Shown here: positions 31,764 to 52,669 of the stretch, one piece after another
How positions within the stretch are numbered: the stretch's first letter is position 1
Layout: each line of letters starts with the position of its first letter
Assembly: GCF_964059025.1 (NCBI RefSeq)
Contig: NZ_OZ060376.1
Span: 62,392-126,391, forward strand
Direction: 5' to 3'
From: Buchnera aphidicola (Myzocallis carpini)
GTDB lineage: Bacteria; Pseudomonadota; Gammaproteobacteria; Enterobacterales; Enterobacteriaceae
DNA: 64,000 nucleotides
Made by a program: the position numbers and the translations under genes
The notes under the pieces: model-generated
Databases searched by the model: none
What the model was told of the DNA's origin: nothing
What the model saw: only the letters and a program-made list of their open reading frames with translations

Positions 31764-33692
31764 ATGCCTGTTATTACATTACTTAATGGAAAAAAACGAG
31801 TATATCAAAATACTATTTCATTAGTAAAAGTAGCAGAAGATATTAGTATAGGATTGTCCAAAAATTCTATTGGAGCTATTGTAAATGGTCAATTAGTAGA
31901 TTTACGATCTATGATTTTATACGATTCTCAAATACATATTTTAACTTATAAAGATAAAAAAGCAATTAATTTTATTAAATATTCTTACATACAATTATTG
32001 TCTTATGCATGTAAAAAAATATGGAAACATTCTAAAATAGGAATCGGTGGTATAACTAAAAACGGTTTTTATTGTGATATTGATATTAACAGTGTTATTA
32101 ATTATGAAAAACTTTCAGAATTAGAATGTATTATGAAAGATTTAATTAATATTCAATATAATATTATACTACAATATATTTTAAAATCAGAAGTTAAAAA
32201 AATATTTTATATAAATAATGAATGTTATAAATTATATTATATTGAAAAAATTTTTTGCAATAAAAAAATAATACCTATTTATTTTCATGAAGAATATTTA
32301 GATATTTATTTAGGTCCTCAAGTTCCTAATATTAAATTTTGTTCTTCTTTTAAATTACAGAATATATCTGGAGCATATTGGGAAAGTAATAAGAATAATA
32401 ACATGTTACATAGAATTTATGGTTTGTGTTGGTTAAACGATAATCAATCTTTAAAATATTTACAAAATGTAGAGAAAATTAAAAATAAAGATCATAGAAT
32501 TTTGAATAAAAAAATGGATTTATATCATAGTTCAGATGTTGCTCCAGGTATGATATTCTGGCATGGAAATGGATTAATTATTTTTCAAGAATTAAAAAAT
32601 TTTATTCGTATTCAATTAAAAAAATGGGAATACGAAGAAGTTCAAACTCCTATAGTAATGAACGAATCGGTTTGGAAAACTAGTGGACATATTGAAAATT
32701 TTTCAGAATTAATGTTTTATGTAGATACAGACAATAAAAGATCTTGTATTAAACCTATGAATTGTCCTGGGCATATATATATATATAATAATGTCTTAAG
32801 ATCATATCGCGATCTTCCAGTACGATTAGCAGAATTTGGAGTATGTCACCGAAATGAAACATCTGGTTCTTTAAATGGTTTATTAAGATTAAAAAGCTTT
32901 ACTCAAGATGATGCACATATATTTTGTACTTTACAACAAGTACAAAGTGAAATTATTAATTGTATTAATATTACTAATGAAATTTATAGAATTTTTGGAT
33001 TTCAAAAAATTCACGTTAAATTTTCTACTAGACCGGAAAAAAGAATCGGAAGTGATACAATATGGGATTATGCAGAAGAAAATTTAAAAAATGCTTTATT
33101 AAAGCATAATATTGATTTTACATATCAAATTGGTGAAGGTGCATTTTATGGACCAAAAATTGAATTCGTTTTAGAAGATCGTTTAAATAGATTGTGGCAA
33201 TGTGGAACAATACAACTTGATTTTTATTTACCAAATAGATTTTCTGCATCGTATATTGATGAAAATAATAAAAAAAAAATACCAATTATAATTCATAGGG
33301 CTATTTTAGGTTCTATAGAACGGTTTATTGGTATTTTATTAGAAGAATATGTAGGTTTTTTACCTACTTGGTTATCTCCTCTGCAAGTGATAGTTGTTAA
33401 TATTAATAATAATAATAATAATTATGCTTTAAAAGTATTTAAAAAATTAGTACAATATAATATTAGAGTAAAGTATGATATAGGTAATGAAAAAATAAAT
33501 TTTAAAATTCGAAAATATACTATGCAGCGTGTTTCTTATATATTAATATGTGGTGATAAAGAATCTTCGACTAATACAGTGAGTGTAAGGTATGGAAATA
33601 ATAATATGATTAATTTAATGAATATTGATCTTTTTATTAAAAAAATAACTTATGAAATTAAAAATTATCTTTTTAATTCTTTGGAGGAATAA
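31764..33692 (+). CDS. thrS: Threonyl-tRNA synthetase with degenerate editing site
   Basis: ThrRS has the standard layout: TGS domain (1-60), editing domain N2 (about 65-225), class II catalytic core (about 245-535) and anticodon-binding domain. It has 642 residues, equal to E. coli, so numbering matches. Catalytic zinc ligands remain: MNCPGH (Cys 334), DDAHIF (His 385) and IIHRAILGS (His 511). In the editing domain, His73 is Tyr, His77 is Gln, Cys182 is Tyr and His186 is Gln (IKYSYIQLL and DIYLGPQV instead of E. coli IRHSCAHLL and DMCRGPHV), so deacylation of Ser-tRNA-Thr is probably lost. The ATG at 31764 follows AAGGA. The frame also opens at TTG 31758. Six AAT repeats at 33405-33422 encode Asn in a linker. 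Confidence 0.97.
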   Translation: MPVITLLNGKKRVYQNTISLVKVAEDISIGLSKNSIGAIVNGQLVDLRSMILYDSQIHILTYKDKKAINFIKYSYIQLLSYACKKIWKHSKIGIGGITKNGFYCDIDINSVINYEKLSELECIMKDLINIQYNIILQYILKSEVKKIFYINNECYKLYYIEKIFCNKKIIPIYFHEEYLDIYLGPQVPNIKFCSSFKLQNISGAYWESNKNNNMLHRIYGLCWLNDNQSLKYLQNVEKIKNKDHRILNKKMDLYHSSDVAPGMIFWHGNGLIIFQELKNFIRIQLKKWEYEEVQTPIVMNESVWKTSGHIENFSELMFYVDTDNKRSCIKPMNCPGHIYIYNNVLRSYRDLPVRLAEFGVCHRNETSGSLNGLLRLKSFTQDDAHIFCTLQQVQSEIINCINITNEIYRIFGFQKIHVKFSTRPEKRIGSDTIWDYAEENLKNALLKHNIDFTYQIGEGAFYGPKIEFVLEDRLNRLWQCGTIQLDFYLPNRFSASYIDENNKKKIPIIIHRAILGSIERFIGILLEEYVGFLPTWLSPLQVIVVNINNNNNNYALKVFKKLVQYNIRVKYDIGNEKINFKIRKYTMQRVSYILICGDKESSTNTVSVRYGNNNMINLMNIDLFIKKITYEIKNYLFNSLEE

Positions 33693-34964: not shown

Positions 34965-35969
34965 ATGGATTTTGATAAAGTAATTTTTTTAAAAAAATTT
35001 AATGTACATTATAATCAAGTGATTACAATCAAGGATTTAGAAAAATTACGTATCCACTATTTAGGTAAAAAAGGTATTGTTGTTACACAAATTAAAAAAA
35101 TTCAATATGTTCCATTATTAGAACGAAAAAAAATTGGTATAATATTTAACGATATAAAAAAATATATTATTAATAAAATTGCTTTAAAAAAAAAAAAAAT
35201 TCAATTATTAAATATACAAAATAAAATACAATTAAAAAAACAAGATTTTTCACTACCTGGAAGAAGAAAAAATATCGGTGCTCTTCATCCTATTACAAAT
35301 ATGATTTATTACATAGAATCCATTTTTGTAAGATTAGGTTTTAAAATTATTCATAATGGATTCGAAATAGAAGATACATATCATAATTTCGATGCTTTAA
35401 ATATTCCTAATTATCATCCTGCGAGACAAAATCAGGATACTTTTTGGTTTGACACAAACCGTTTATTAAGAACTCAAACTTCAAATATGCAAATTCACGA
35501 AATAAAGAAAAAAGAGCTACCGATTAAAATTCTTGTTCCAGGGAAAGTATATCGAAAAGATTATGATTATACACATAGTCCTATGTTTCATCAAGTAGAA
35601 GGGCTTATTATAGATAAAAATATTAATTTTACAAATTTAAAGTGGATTATTAATTATTTTTTAGATTTTCTTTTTAATAAAAAGATGAAGATAAGATTTC
35701 GTTGTTCTTATTTCCCTTTTACTATATTATCTGCAGAAGTAGATATCATGCATACTAATAATAATTGGCTAGAAATATTAGGATGTGGAATGGTACATCC
35801 AGAAATTTTAAATAGATTTAATATTGATTCAAAAAAATATTCAGGATTGGCTTTTGGAATTGGTATTGAAAGAATAATTATGTTATATTATGGAATTGAT
35901 GATTTGCGTTTATTTTTAAAAAATGATTTAAAATTTCTTCAACAATTCAAAAGAAGCAGGTATTATTAA
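34965..35969 (+). CDS. pheS: Phenylalanyl-tRNA synthetase, alpha chain
   Basis: The catalytic alpha subunit of the alpha2beta2 PheRS, 334 residues (E. coli 327). The N-terminal coiled coil (about 1-85) contacts tRNA. It includes LRIHYLGKKGIV and a Lys run. The class II core has HPITNMIYYIESIFVRLGF, FDALNIPNYHPARQNQDTFWF near 140-160 (in parts), LRTQTSNMQIH, HQVEGLIID, and motif 3 GLAFGIGIERIIMLYYGI near 300. A 14-base A tract at 35186-35199 encodes ALKKKKI in frame. Its stop overlaps the pheT start (TAATG). Confidence 0.97.
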   Translation: MDFDKVIFLKKFNVHYNQVITIKDLEKLRIHYLGKKGIVVTQIKKIQYVPLLERKKIGIIFNDIKKYIINKIALKKKKIQLLNIQNKIQLKKQDFSLPGRRKNIGALHPITNMIYYIESIFVRLGFKIIHNGFEIEDTYHNFDALNIPNYHPARQNQDTFWFDTNRLLRTQTSNMQIHEIKKKELPIKILVPGKVYRKDYDYTHSPMFHQVEGLIIDKNINFTNLKWIINYFLDFLFNKKMKIRFRCSYFPFTILSAEVDIMHTNNNWLEILGCGMVHPEILNRFNIDSKKYSGLAFGIGIERIIMLYYGIDDLRLFLKNDLKFLQQFKRSRYY

Positions 35970-38365
35970 TGCGATTGAGTAAACATCTTTTATATAACTG
36001 GATCAATTGTAATATTCATTTTGATACTATCTGTAAACAAATTACATATTCTGGGTTAGAAACAGAGGATATTCAGAATAATATTAATATTTTTCAAAAA
36101 TATCTTGTAATAGGAAAGATAATATTTTCTATTCAACATCCGAATTCTTCATTGTATATGATTTACAAAGTAGCGATTAGTAAGGAAAAAATTTTAAATA
36201 TCGTTTCTGACAATAAATTTTTTTGTCATCATATGAAAGTTGTTGTTGCAAAAATTGGTTCTATATTATCTAATAATAAAATTGTACAAAAAGAAAATAT
36301 ATGTGGTATTATCTCTGAAGGTATTATATGTACTTACAAACATTGCAATATGTTTAATAAAAAAAATGATGTTATTGAATTACTAGACTGTGCTCCAATA
36401 GGTATAAATTTTCAAGATTATTTATTTTATAAAGATCAAATTATTAAAGTAAATGTAACACCAAATAGATTAGATGCATTAGGTGTTTTTGGAATTGCAA
36501 GAGAAGTGGCTATTTTAAATGATTTCAATATGCCTAATATTGCTAATATACCAAGCCCAATAACAATTCAGGAAAAGTGTAATTTACAAGTTAAAATTTC
36601 AGATACTATATACTATACTAGTAGAATTATTAAAAATGTTAATTTAAATATTAAAACACCAATATGGATGAAAGAAAAATTAAGAAGATGTCATATTAAT
36701 TCTGTAAATATTGTGATTGATATTGTAAATTATATTTTTCTAGAATTTGGAAAATCTTTATATGTGTTTAGTTTTTTAAATACTATGCATGATATTGTGT
36801 TACGTTTTGCAGAAGACTCAGAAAAAATTTTTATAAAAAATAAAAATACAATTATTTTAAATAAAAAAATCATAGTTTTATCAAATAAATGTAGTATTTT
36901 ATCATTTTTAGGAAATATGGATTTTAAATATTTCCCGATTCATTTAAATCATAAAAATTTATTTCTTGGTTTTTTATTTGTTGATCCAAAAACAGTTTAT
37001 AATTCTCTTTATGAACTTAAAAAAAAAAATCCTTGTATTCAAAACAATGAATATTATGTTGATACGACTGACCAGATAAAAATTATAGAATATACTACTA
37101 ACCTATTTTTAAAAATCTGTGGAGGTAATGTAGGACCTATAGTTTCTTATGTATCTGAAGATTATCATAAATATATTAATAAAAAAATAACCTTAAACTA
37201 TAAGAATATTCAAAGACTGACAGGATGTAATATTCATTATGATATTATTAGTAAAATTTTAAAAAATTTACAATATTCTATAGAATATACATGTGAACAA
37301 TATTGGAATATTATTCCTCCAACATGGAGATTAGATATTACTATTGAAGAAGATGTCATCTCTGATATTATAAGAATTTATCAATATTCTAATATACCTA
37401 TACAGCCTTTTTATTCTACTCACAATATTATTTCTAATAATATTACTGAAAATTTTTTAAAACGTATTAAATATTTATTAATAGATTTAGGTTATCATGA
37501 AGTGATAAATTATAGTTTTATAGATCCCAAAATACAAAATTTAATATTTCCTAAGAATAATTTTTTATTTTTAAATAATCCTATATCAATAGAAATGTCA
37601 TGTATGCGATATTCTCTTTTACCTGGTTTAATTAAAAATCTCTCTTATCACCAAAATCGGCAGTATGAAGAAGTAAAATTTTTTGAAAGTGGATTATGTT
37701 TTTCTTCTAACCCTAAAAAACATTTGGGTGTGAAACAAGATTTATATTTATCAGGAATTATTGGAAATATTGGTGATAAAAAAAATTGGTTTTTTTCTGC
37801 TAGAAAATTTGATTTTTATGATTTAAAAGGTGATATAGAATCTATATTTGATATTTTAGGCTATTTAGAGAATATAGAATTTAAAAAAATATCTTCACGG
37901 ATTTTACATCCTGAACAAAATTTTGGTATTTTTTTAAATAATCAATATATTGGTTTTTTTGGAGCTTTACATCCTTCTTTATTAAAGTCATTTAATTTAC
38001 AATATTCTGTTTTTTTATTTGAATTATTTTGGGATTTTATAATTTTTCGAGATTTTAATAAAATCAAAAAAATTTCTGAATTTCCACATAGTAGAAGAGA
38101 TATTTCAATTTTAATGAACGAAGATATTGAAGTTAATGAGATTATATTATTTTGTAAAAAAAAATTTATTGATTTATTATCTGAAATTCGCATTTTTGAT
38201 ATATATAGAGGTCACACTATTCCTAATGGTCAAAAAAGTATATCATTAACATTTATTTTTCAAAGTATCGAAAAAACTTTAACAGACCAAGAAATTGATA
38301 ATATGATGTCTTTTTATTTACAAGGTATAAAAAAAAAATTTGGAGCTTCCTTAAGAAAGATATAA
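35969..38365 (+). CDS. pheT: Phenylalanyl-tRNA synthetase, beta chain with degenerate editing site
   Basis: The beta subunit, 798 residues (E. coli 795), with a tRNA-binding-like OB domain (about 40-150), B1/B5 domains, the B3/B4 editing module, a catalytic-like core and the C-terminal anticodon-binding RRM domain (FPHSRRDISILMNE near 705). VTPNRLDALGVFGIAREVAILN near 163 and FESGLCF are conserved. The editing pocket is altered: the His of E. coli GQPMHAFD is Tyr265 (GKSLYVFS), the Glu of LLECAFF is Gly334 (FLGFLF), and HTDAS is CIQNN at 356-360. Clearing of Tyr-tRNA-Phe is therefore unlikely. ihfA, which follows pheT in E. coli, is absent. Confidence 0.96.
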   Translation: MRLSKHLLYNWINCNIHFDTICKQITYSGLETEDIQNNINIFQKYLVIGKIIFSIQHPNSSLYMIYKVAISKEKILNIVSDNKFFCHHMKVVVAKIGSILSNNKIVQKENICGIISEGIICTYKHCNMFNKKNDVIELLDCAPIGINFQDYLFYKDQIIKVNVTPNRLDALGVFGIAREVAILNDFNMPNIANIPSPITIQEKCNLQVKISDTIYYTSRIIKNVNLNIKTPIWMKEKLRRCHINSVNIVIDIVNYIFLEFGKSLYVFSFLNTMHDIVLRFAEDSEKIFIKNKNTIILNKKIIVLSNKCSILSFLGNMDFKYFPIHLNHKNLFLGFLFVDPKTVYNSLYELKKKNPCIQNNEYYVDTTDQIKIIEYTTNLFLKICGGNVGPIVSYVSEDYHKYINKKITLNYKNIQRLTGCNIHYDIISKILKNLQYSIEYTCEQYWNIIPPTWRLDITIEEDVISDIIRIYQYSNIPIQPFYSTHNIISNNITENFLKRIKYLLIDLGYHEVINYSFIDPKIQNLIFPKNNFLFLNNPISIEMSCMRYSLLPGLIKNLSYHQNRQYEEVKFFESGLCFSSNPKKHLGVKQDLYLSGIIGNIGDKKNWFFSARKFDFYDLKGDIESIFDILGYLENIEFKKISSRILHPEQNFGIFLNNQYIGFFGALHPSLLKSFNLQYSVFLFELFWDFIIFRDFNKIKKISEFPHSRRDISILMNEDIEVNEIILFCKKKFIDLLSEIRIFDIYRGHTIPNGQKSISLTFIFQSIEKTLTDQEIDNMMSFYLQGIKKKFGASLRKI

Positions 38366-49887: not shown

Positions 49888-52669
49888 ATATATTTTTATT
49901 ACATCTATTACAAATTTCTTTATTGACATTTTTGATATATATATGATTATAATAATTCCAACATCTTGGGCATTTTATACCAAAATATTTTTGTATTAAT
50001 ATTTTTATATCTTGAATATTTTTATTTTTATAAGATTTTATAGGTGCATCTTGATATTTTTGAATTGTTACTTTAGAAACTAAAAATAAAAATTTTAATT
50101 CGTATGCAAGTATTGTAACTAATTTATAGAAATCATTTTTTACATATAATATAATGCTACTTTCCAGAGAATTTTTTATATTTTTCTTTTTTTTTTCTAA
50201 TTCTATTATTTTATTAATTTCAATCCTTAAATTATATAATTTAATCCAGTTTTCATTACTAATAGCATTCTTTTGTAATATATTGTATGGAATTCGAAAC
50301 CATTCTTCTATAAAAATCGATGTATCATGTTTTCCAGGTATATATTCCCAAATTTCATCTGCCGTAAATGGTAATATTGGAGTTATCCAGCGAACTAATG
50401 CATGTAGAATATAATATAATGCCGTTTGGCAACTTTTTCTTTCTATACTATTTTTTTGTAATGTATATTGTCTATCTTTAATAATTTCTAAATAAAAAGA
50501 ACCTAATTCTATAGAACAAAATTGCATAATTTTTTTGACTACTTTGTGAAATTTATAATTTTGGTATAATATAATGATTTTTTCTTGTATTTTTTTTGTT
50601 CTATTTAAGATCCATTGATCTATGATTAGCATTTTAGAAAAATCAATAGTATGAGTGTATGGGTCAAAATCATTTATGTTGCTTAATAAAAATCTACTTG
50701 TATTTCGAATTCTACGATAATAATCAGAAATCTGTTTTATTATTGCATCCGATATAATAATATCGCTTGTATAATTTGTTGATGCTGTCCATAATCTTAA
50801 AACATCAGCTCCAAATTTTTTAATAATTTCTATTGGAGTAATAACATTTCCAATAGATTTAGACATTTTTTTCCCTAAGTGATCTACTGCAAATCCATGT
50901 GTTAATACTGTTTGAAATGGTAATATATTTTTCATACTTTTTGAAATAATAATAGAAGACATAAACCATCCTCTATATTGATCTGATCCTTCTAAGTACA
51001 TGTGGAGGTTATTAATTTTATTTTTTTTATTACTACTGATTGTATTATTTATACATCCTGATTCAAACCAAACATCTAAAATATCTTTAGATTTTTTATA
51101 TTCTTGATAATCTTTACCTAAAATTTCTTTTTTATCTATTTTCCACCATATTTCTATTCCGTGTAACTTGATAAGGTTACTAATTATTTTAAAAATATTA
51201 GTAGTTTCTGGATGTAGTTGATTGGTTTTTTTATGCAGAAATACTGTTATAGGTACTCCCCATACTCTTTGTCTAGAAATACACCAGTCAGGACGATTTT
51301 CAATCATTGTATGCATTCTATTATATCCCCAGTCAGGGATCCATTTTACTTTTTTAATATCATTTAGTATATTTTTTTTAAATACTTTATTTTGTACTTT
51401 TATAAACCATTGTTTAGTTGTTCTATAAATAATAGGTGTTTTATGTCTCCAACAATGTGGATAGGAATGATATAAATTTTCAGAACATAATAATAAATTG
51501 TTATTTTGAATTAATTCAATAATTATTTTTTCGCTTTTAAAAATATTTAAATAATTTAATTTATCATGTATATTATTGATGTAATTTCCTGCATGATCAA
51601 TAATATTTGCTATAGGTATTTTATATTTTCTACTTATCAAATAATCTTCTTCACCGTGATCTGGTGCTATATGTACAGCTCCTGTTCCTGCATCCAGTGT
51701 CACATGTGTTGATAATATAATTGGTATTGTATTATTTAGAAATGGATGTATAAATTGCAAATGTTCTAATTGGTGTCCATATATCGTACTACAAACTTTC
51801 CATTTTGTGATTTTTATTTTTTTCATAATATTTACAACTAATTTTTTTGCAATAATTACATATTTTTTTTTGTAGCAAATTAATTGATATTGAAAATTAG
51901 GATGAACGGCAATTGCCCGATTTGCTGGAATACTCCATGGAGTTGTGGTCCAAATACTTATATATATCGCTAGTATTTTGATATTAATTGAAAAAATTTT
52001 TTTCAGATTTTCTAATTGGAAACATGAAAAAAGTACAATAATAGATTTTGTTTTTTTTGTATCATATTCTACTTCTGCTTCTGCTAATGCAGACTGGCAT
52101 TTTATACACCAATGCACAGGTTTAAATCCTTGATACAAATATTTATTTTCAATAATTTTTCCTAATATTTTTATAACATTAGATTCTAAGTTTGGTTGCA
52201 TAGTTAATTGTGCATTTTCCCAATCGCCAAAAATTCCTAATCTTATAAAATCTTTTTTTTGTTTTTTTACTTGTTGTATAACATATTCTTTACACATTTG
52301 TCTAAACTTTTCTTTTGTTATTTGATCTCCTGGTTTTCCAAATTGTTTTTCTATTTGATGTTCAATAGGTAATCCATGGCAGTCCCAAAATGGAGTATAT
52401 GGTGTATTAAAACCACATAATGTTTTTGATTTTGTAATAATATCTTTTAAAATTTTATTTATAGCATGACCAATGTGAATATTTCCATTAGCATATGGTG
52501 GTCCGTCGTGTATTATAAAATTGGGTTTTTTTTCGTTTTTTTTTCGAATTTGTTGGTATATATTATTTTTTTTCCATTTATTTAAAGTAACAGGTTCTTT
52601 TTCAGATAAATTACCTCTCATTGGAAAGTTTGTTTTAGGTAAATTTAAAGTGTTTTGATAAGATTTCAT
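49856..52669 (-). CDS. ileS: Isoleucyl-tRNA synthetase
   Basis: IleRS, a class I synthetase of 937 residues (E. coli 938). HIGH is in ANGNIHIGHAINKIL near residue 58 and KMSKS in GKKMSKSIGN near 595. The CP1 editing domain retains its key residues, with WTTTPWSIPANRA near 240-252 and GTGAVHIAPDHGEEDY near 328-343 (His and Asp conserved). The C-terminal zinc finger has CPRCWNY and ICNRCNKN. GAGG lies before the ATG. The gene before it in E. coli, ribF, is absent. Confidence 0.97.
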   Translation of the reverse strand: MKSYQNTLNLPKTNFPMRGNLSEKEPVTLNKWKKNNIYQQIRKKNEKKPNFIIHDGPPYANGNIHIGHAINKILKDIITKSKTLCGFNTPYTPFWDCHGLPIEHQIEKQFGKPGDQITKEKFRQMCKEYVIQQVKKQKKDFIRLGIFGDWENAQLTMQPNLESNVIKILGKIIENKYLYQGFKPVHWCIKCQSALAEAEVEYDTKKTKSIIVLFSCFQLENLKKIFSINIKILAIYISIWTTTPWSIPANRAIAVHPNFQYQLICYKKKYVIIAKKLVVNIMKKIKITKWKVCSTIYGHQLEHLQFIHPFLNNTIPIILSTHVTLDAGTGAVHIAPDHGEEDYLISRKYKIPIANIIDHAGNYINNIHDKLNYLNIFKSEKIIIELIQNNNLLLCSENLYHSYPHCWRHKTPIIYRTTKQWFIKVQNKVFKKNILNDIKKVKWIPDWGYNRMHTMIENRPDWCISRQRVWGVPITVFLHKKTNQLHPETTNIFKIISNLIKLHGIEIWWKIDKKEILGKDYQEYKKSKDILDVWFESGCINNTISSNKKNKINNLHMYLEGSDQYRGWFMSSIIISKSMKNILPFQTVLTHGFAVDHLGKKMSKSIGNVITPIEIIKKFGADVLRLWTASTNYTSDIIISDAIIKQISDYYRRIRNTSRFLLSNINDFDPYTHTIDFSKMLIIDQWILNRTKKIQEKIIILYQNYKFHKVVKKIMQFCSIELGSFYLEIIKDRQYTLQKNSIERKSCQTALYYILHALVRWITPILPFTADEIWEYIPGKHDTSIFIEEWFRIPYNILQKNAISNENWIKLYNLRIEINKIIELEKKKKNIKNSLESSIILYVKNDFYKLVTILAYELKFLFLVSKVTIQKYQDAPIKSYKNKNIQDIKILIQKYFGIKCPRCWNYYNHIYIKNVNKEICNRCNKNIYENGEKRKFI

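Follow-up and report, generated by a model that had tools for sequence, protein, structure and literature searches.

A Buchnera threonyl-tRNA synthetase retains an N2 editing domain stripped of its catalytic residues

The stretch of DNA analysed here, called the window throughout, comprises 64,000 nucleotides of Buchnera aphidicola (Myzocallis carpini) (contig NZ_OZ060376.1, positions 62,392 to 126,391), and the gene under study is thrS, which encodes threonyl-tRNA synthetase (ThrRS) and lies in the order aroH-thrS-infC within a reduced genome of 442,466 bp (99.43% complete). In E. coli K-12 infC also follows thrS, but aroH does not adjoin it. The mechanical list of open reading frames gives the gene an alternative start, TTG, two codons upstream of the ATG. 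Its product scores 607.1 bits against TIGR00418 (curated cut-off 383.65), and residues 1–642 align end to end by phmmer with residues 1–642 of E. coli ThrRS (1qf6), so the original prediction, made from the letters alone, was right that the protein has the E. coli length and that the numbering matches. Pfam tRNA_SAD matched the N2 editing domain at 22.5 bits in one search, slightly below the cut-off of 24, and at 27 bits, above it, in another. The boundaries of N1, N2, core and anticodon domain (Table 1) are those we take to apply, N1 following the E. coli structure.

Table 1. Window coordinates of thrS, its domains and editing-site codons, and of two further synthetase genes
Feature	Position	Strand	Remark
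thrS, threonyl-tRNA synthetase	31764..33692	+	ATG-started open reading frame, 642 codons + stop; TIGR00418
N1 (TGS), residues 1–62	31764..31949	+	Pfam TGS at 4–61, 23.4 bits, cut-off 22.2
N2 editing domain, residues 63–224	31950..32435	+	catalytic residues lost, fold predicted
First editing motif, Y-S-Y-I-Q	31980..31994	+	E. coli H73-S-C-A-H77; phmmer alignment, bases read
Y73	31980..31982	+	TAT; E. coli His73
Q77	31992..31994	+	CAA; E. coli His77
Second editing motif, D-I-Y-L-G-P-Q	32301..32321	+	E. coli D180-M-C182-R-G-P-H186; phmmer alignment, bases read
D180	32301..32303	+	GAT; retained
Y182	32307..32309	+	TAT; E. coli Cys182
Q186	32319..32321	+	CAA; E. coli His186
Class II catalytic core, residues 243–534	32490..33365	+	zinc ligands and pocket intact
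Anticodon-binding domain, residues 535–642	33366..33689	+	Pfam HGTP_anticodon at 541–628
pheT, PheRS beta	35927..38362	+	five B3/4 residues replaced
ileS, IleRS	about 50753..52585	-	T246S in the CP1 editing site

Editing-competent bacterial ThrRS carries His73, His77, Cys182 and His186, and the window enzyme has none of them, its residues being Tyr, Gln, Tyr and Gln at the places where the original prediction had read them. Cys75 of the first editing motif is likewise Tyr. The aminoacylation zinc ligands Cys334, His385 and His511, which had been called intact along with Asp180, are present both here and in all 122 rows of a residue alignment made up of E. coli, the window and 120 database proteins, one of which is the window protein itself. 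At the 16 positions that we take to form the aminoacylation pocket, 42 of 43 loci are identical to E. coli, the window locus among them. The enzyme therefore combines lost editing residues with an intact synthetic site, which supports the earlier claim that it still charges tRNA-Thr.

Passages of PMC4041444 give the kcat of E. coli ThrRS as falling 7000-fold in H73A, 70-fold in H186A and more than 500-fold in C182A or C182S. Because all four catalytic residues are lost and the corresponding E. coli mutants are crippled, the N2 domain of the window enzyme would be unable to hydrolyse Ser-tRNA-Thr and post-transfer editing would be dead, as had been proposed, and substitution of Ser for Thr is likely to be raised. 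The genome was searched for a replacement in trans. A search for YbaK/ProXp-type factors (PF04073), which was positive in 12 of the 14 genomes used as controls, found none here, and neither did one for DTD (PF02580), positive in 8 of the 14. No free-standing tRNA_SAD protein was found, the family matching solely ThrRS and alanyl-tRNA synthetase (AlaRS). On this basis we rejected a stand-alone rescue factor of these known families. Compensating tightening of the synthetic pocket was also rejected, since the checked positions are as in E. coli and none is visible.

Accuracy might still be kept by other means, namely pre-transfer hydrolysis of Ser-AMP, kinetic exclusion of serine by abundant threonine, or discrimination by EF-Tu, so that no mistranslation would be measurable. 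Yeast mitochondrial ThrRS, which has no editing domain, retains partial pre-transfer editing according to an excerpt of PMC4267643, and the genome of the window encodes threonine synthase, whose product may raise the Thr:Ser ratio and keep the serine error down. However, the unaltered pocket offers this explanation no help, and we consider it unlikely. Cross-editing of Ser-tRNA-Thr by AlaRS is a further conceivable route that we considered.

The loss extends well beyond the window. Residues 73, 77, 180, 182 and 186 read H-H-D-C-H in 70 of the 122 aligned rows and in all 85 enteric loci (a non-random, mostly free-living sample consisting of the best 80 of 567, none titled Buchnera, plus five others), but in none of 28 proteins named Buchnera; strain APS (P0079) has Y-Q-D-D-Q. 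In a second Buchnera genus, for which 36 genomes were searched, the site is gone in all 30 loci analysed (G341, G403, G404, G405, G419 and G422 were left out, thrS of G404 being split between frames). We also compared 73 small genomes from the family to which the window belongs (43 + 30), hand-picked for size and including members of the genus: 28 are changed at all four positions, 15 at three and two at one, 25 have no editing domain, one is frame-broken and two have an intact site. The 43 among these 73 with the Buchnera-type aroH-thrS-infC order are all without an intact editing site (24 changed at four positions, 13 at three, five without the domain and one frame-broken), and the cores of three congeners (G001, G004 and G008) are identical to those of named Buchnera proteins in a maximum-likelihood core tree. 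The original interpretation of an enzyme that charges but cannot edit is supported, whereas any suggestion that this genome is special is not: the proposed alignment with other Buchnera ThrRS placed the loss in every Buchnera-type genome examined.

Since the loss is common to all these genomes, it most likely occurred in or before their common ancestor, as far as shared residue states indicate. Gln186 occurs in 32 of the 37 Buchnera-type-order genomes that keep N2, which fits an inherited change. This Gln is also remarkably stable for a residue of a presumably dead site, standing in 30 of 30 loci of the second genus.

We then considered the state of the domain that has lost its catalytic residues. 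Of five AlphaFold models, the best gives the N2 block a pLDDT (predicted local distance difference test) of 80–94, and Foldseek superposes the modelled N1–N2 on 1tje, the solved editing domain of E. coli ThrRS (residues 1–224, N1+N2), with a template modelling score of 0.92 and a root-mean-square deviation of 1.9 Å over 223 columns. The core model, with pLDDT below 50 at residues 331–356 and 366–382, was given no weight. Across 25 N2-keeping Buchnera-type proteins, of which two have late-starting frames (L123 at residue 50, L144 at residue 22), Lys84, Phe102, Asp105, Tyr155, Asn189 and Arg217 are invariant, and position 182 ranks 160th of 162 in conservation (1 being the most conserved). In 15 disjoint close pairs drawn from the 30 loci of the second genus omega is 0.34 for N2 and 0.12 for the core, and in 39 disjoint enteric pairs it is 0.035 and 0.022; the ratio dN(N2)/dN(core) is 3.12 (2.74–3.58) in the Buchnera pairs versus 1.72 (1.27–2.26) in the enteric pairs. 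The anticodon domain of the Buchnera pairs is about as loose (omega 0.35), and N2 is therefore relaxed and clearly not neutral. Mere debris would have decayed; to judge from these rates N2 is kept, in the relatives, under weaker but real purifying selection, and the domain would be dead yet retained.

The retained function is most likely docking of the tRNA acceptor stem in support of charging, by analogy with the bacterial ThrRS editing domain, which binds the acceptor stem and whose deletion lowers charging and not activation (passages of PMC4267643). Alternatively, the recurrent replacements Tyr73, Gln77 and Gln186 might constitute a novel active site that uses a different chemistry or acts on a different substrate. 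They are more conserved than pure decay predicts, since of the 30 loci of one genus all have Gln186 and 29 have Gln77, but a conserved Gln may equally be inherited packing. Moreover, the 25 sequences show 12 residue types and three gaps at position 182 and seven types at position 73, and several close relatives are missing the whole domain, which makes a new active site very improbable.

Four of the eleven genomes of the genus (G002, G003, G005 and G006) encode ThrRS only from E. coli residue 233/236 onwards, N1 and N2 being absent from the open frame. Their frames run to 403–411 codons between stops and 399–401 from a first ATG at 238–239; those of G002 and G003 have in addition an in-frame TTG at 233. 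Like yeast mitochondrial ThrRS (MST1), these proteins consist of core and anticodon domain without an editing domain, whereas the window enzyme still has N1 and N2. In the core tree the truncated genomes are interspersed with full-length relatives at three positions: G005 groups with the Phyllaphis symbiont and G009 (support 98/78), G006 has a separate position, and G002 and G003 stand together with the full-length G001 as sister. Provided that a lost domain is not regained, three positions imply at least three losses of N1+N2. The full-length thrS of G001 (L089) has an in-frame Met238 at the site of the first ATG of G002 and G003, possibly an internal start that preceded the deletion, and perhaps this pre-existing Met238 eased the loss of N1+N2 in that subclade. 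Mixed states also occur within three further genera. In g120, G129 is truncated whereas G231 and G301 are full length; in g116, G125 is truncated and the site of G228 is intact; and in g77, where both genomes are about 83–84% complete, G086 is truncated and the site of G206 is changed.

Remnants of the missing part were sought in the 304–745 bp upstream of five truncated genes, where tblastn was not clear of 20 shuffles each: best bits against the shuffle maximum were 23.5/26.6 for L090, 18.5/26.6 for L093, 18.5/27.3 for L091, 22.7/28.1 for L149 and, marginally above it, 24.6/23.9 for L092. Weak signs consist of one 30-base blastn match at L090, which had no shuffle control, and of matches in G002 and G005 that extend upstream through stops, from residues 143 and 188; in a second search both began at residue 212.

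We compared other synthetases of the same genome with their E. coli counterparts at positions that we take to form the editing sites of AlaRS, ValRS, IleRS, LeuRS, PheRS and ProRS. AlaRS keeps five of five, ValRS ten of ten and IleRS seven of eight CP1 positions. In contrast, LeuRS keeps two of eight (T248, D345), PheRS beta one of six and ProRS two of five. The threonine-rich TTRPDT of LeuRS (L174, G000:C1 about 329582–332107) reads ITKLHL with Asp345 kept, and the B3/4 residues H265, G318, E334, T354 and A356 of PheRS beta have become Y, D, G, N and C. The full E. coli set at these five positions occurs in none of the 16 Buchnera-type genomes compared, H265 being kept in four. Both editing domains are still recognised by Pfam (PF13603 at 114.8 bits for LeuRS, PF03483 at 96.9 bits for PheRS), and so there too a domain persists with changed residues. 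The ProRS insertion (L175, G000:C1 about 189802–191271, the frame being cut by the stretch) is degenerate and PF04073 does not detect it.

Like N2, the AlaRS editing domain is a tRNA_SAD domain in Pfam. Its H-H-Q-C-H is present in 27 of 28 endosymbionts, and of the 15 among them whose ThrRS is domain-less or frame-broken, 14 keep the AlaRS site; the exception, G132 (L261, L262), combines a minimal ThrRS with an AlaRS gene that is itself broken and has no alignment of its longest frame with the editing site. As excerpted from PMC6918089, isogenic E. coli mutants differ in the same sense, ThrRS C182A growing like the wild type and AlaRS C666A being impaired, and we offer this contrast as a reason why, of the two enzymes, only AlaRS retains its site. 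We infer a selective loss, in which Ser-for-Thr errors are tolerated and the AlaRS site that clears Ser from tRNA-Ala is held intact.

Could mistranslation instead be adaptive, providing the symbiont with a useful statistical proteome? Passages of PMC10057733 and PMC4014445 suggest that this might hold for host-restricted bacteria such as Mycoplasma, the former calling it an open question. However, the AlaRS, IleRS and ValRS editing motifs are retained here and a mutualist would seem to have little to gain from immune evasion, so that we think adaptation most improbable. Sequencing or assembly error, finally, was rejected and has next to no plausibility: AT-rich homopolymers may break genes of relatives, as perhaps in G213, whose thrS frame (L146) is interrupted at an A17 tract (a frameshift, an assembly error or a slippage-rescued gene, and not counted as a loss because slippage might rescue the frame), or in G404 (G404:C1:3721-5645), where thrS is in two frames, but in the window the 642-codon frame is open, its four substitutions are separate from one another, and dozens of other genomes show the like.

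The explanation that we favour, with a probability of roughly 0.87, is that the window ThrRS is a Buchnera-type endosymbiont enzyme with a relic editing domain, whose catalysis was probably lost ancestrally and which was most likely retained for docking and became deletable in some relatives. As endosymbiosis relaxed selection, editing would have been lost in or before the ancestor common to the Buchnera-type genomes, while the remainder of N2 was kept since it would still dock the acceptor stem and aid charging. Where that contribution became dispensable, the 5′ third of thrS would decay and translation would start inside the linker, the end product being a catalytic core with an anticodon domain, as in yeast mitochondria. 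For the full stepwise scheme, in which catalysis was lost once, the dead N2 was kept for docking and N1+N2 were then lost convergently at linker residues 233–243 while nearly all the same cells kept the AlaRS domain intact, we see slightly better than even chances.

Several points weigh against this reading. The single ancestral loss is read from states held in common, support for the deep branches of the core tree is weak, residue 186 is not Gln in five genomes, which belong to four genera (g11, g19, g45, g127), and three rows counted as changed at all four positions (g110) have at 182 an alignment-dependent gap that was scored as changed. The NG86 estimates of omega take no account of the strong AT bias, and the acceptor-docking role would be carried over from literature on bacterial ThrRS. 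Furthermore, a high forced level of Ser-for-Thr harms E. coli (an excerpt of PMC6918089), so that tolerance in Buchnera would hinge on errors being few. The loss therefore points to an error rate that is low or can be borne, and not to one without cost.

Li 2011 is said to have described editing-defective Mycoplasma synthetases, and Melnikov 2018 reportedly covered more than 10,000 genomes in a survey of ThrRS. Passages of PMC7373986, PMC10057733, PMC11020763 and PMC12362246 credit the latter with the discovery of editing loss in host-restricted bacteria, and the window ThrRS belongs to this already published kind. In Mycoplasma, as excerpted from PMC4014445, ThrRS, LeuRS and PheRS editing is lost, YbaK, ProX and AlaX are absent, and ProRS of Mollicutes has no cis-editing. 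The window genome shares with these bacteria its reduced size, changed editing sites in the same three synthetases and intact synthetic sites. It differs in being that of an aphid mutualist, in its intact AlaRS, IleRS and ValRS editing motifs and in the degenerate insertion still present in its ProRS. Relative to E. coli ThrRS (1qf6, 1tje), length, domain order, N1–N2 fold, zinc site and synthetic pocket are alike and the four N2 residues are not. In Carsonella thrS is among the genes listed as missing (PMC2175510). In the open-licence literature we found no paper describing truncation of Buchnera thrS, nor any description of repeated whole-domain loss among Buchnera or of the contrast with AlaRS within those genomes, and we do not claim that either is absent from print.

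On the question of which proofreading steps shrinking genomes drop, these genomes provide a clear example in which a paralogue in the same cells serves as control: the ThrRS and AlaRS editing domains are homologous and both clear serine, and the AlaRS site alone is retained, matching the growth cost in E. coli reported in passages of PMC6918089. The natural series from intact through dead to deleted makes a non-catalytic role of N2 testable. Separately, the thrS matches L231 and L232 (G220 and G111) contain seven in-frame TGA codons each, which suggests that TGA is read as Trp in that genus.
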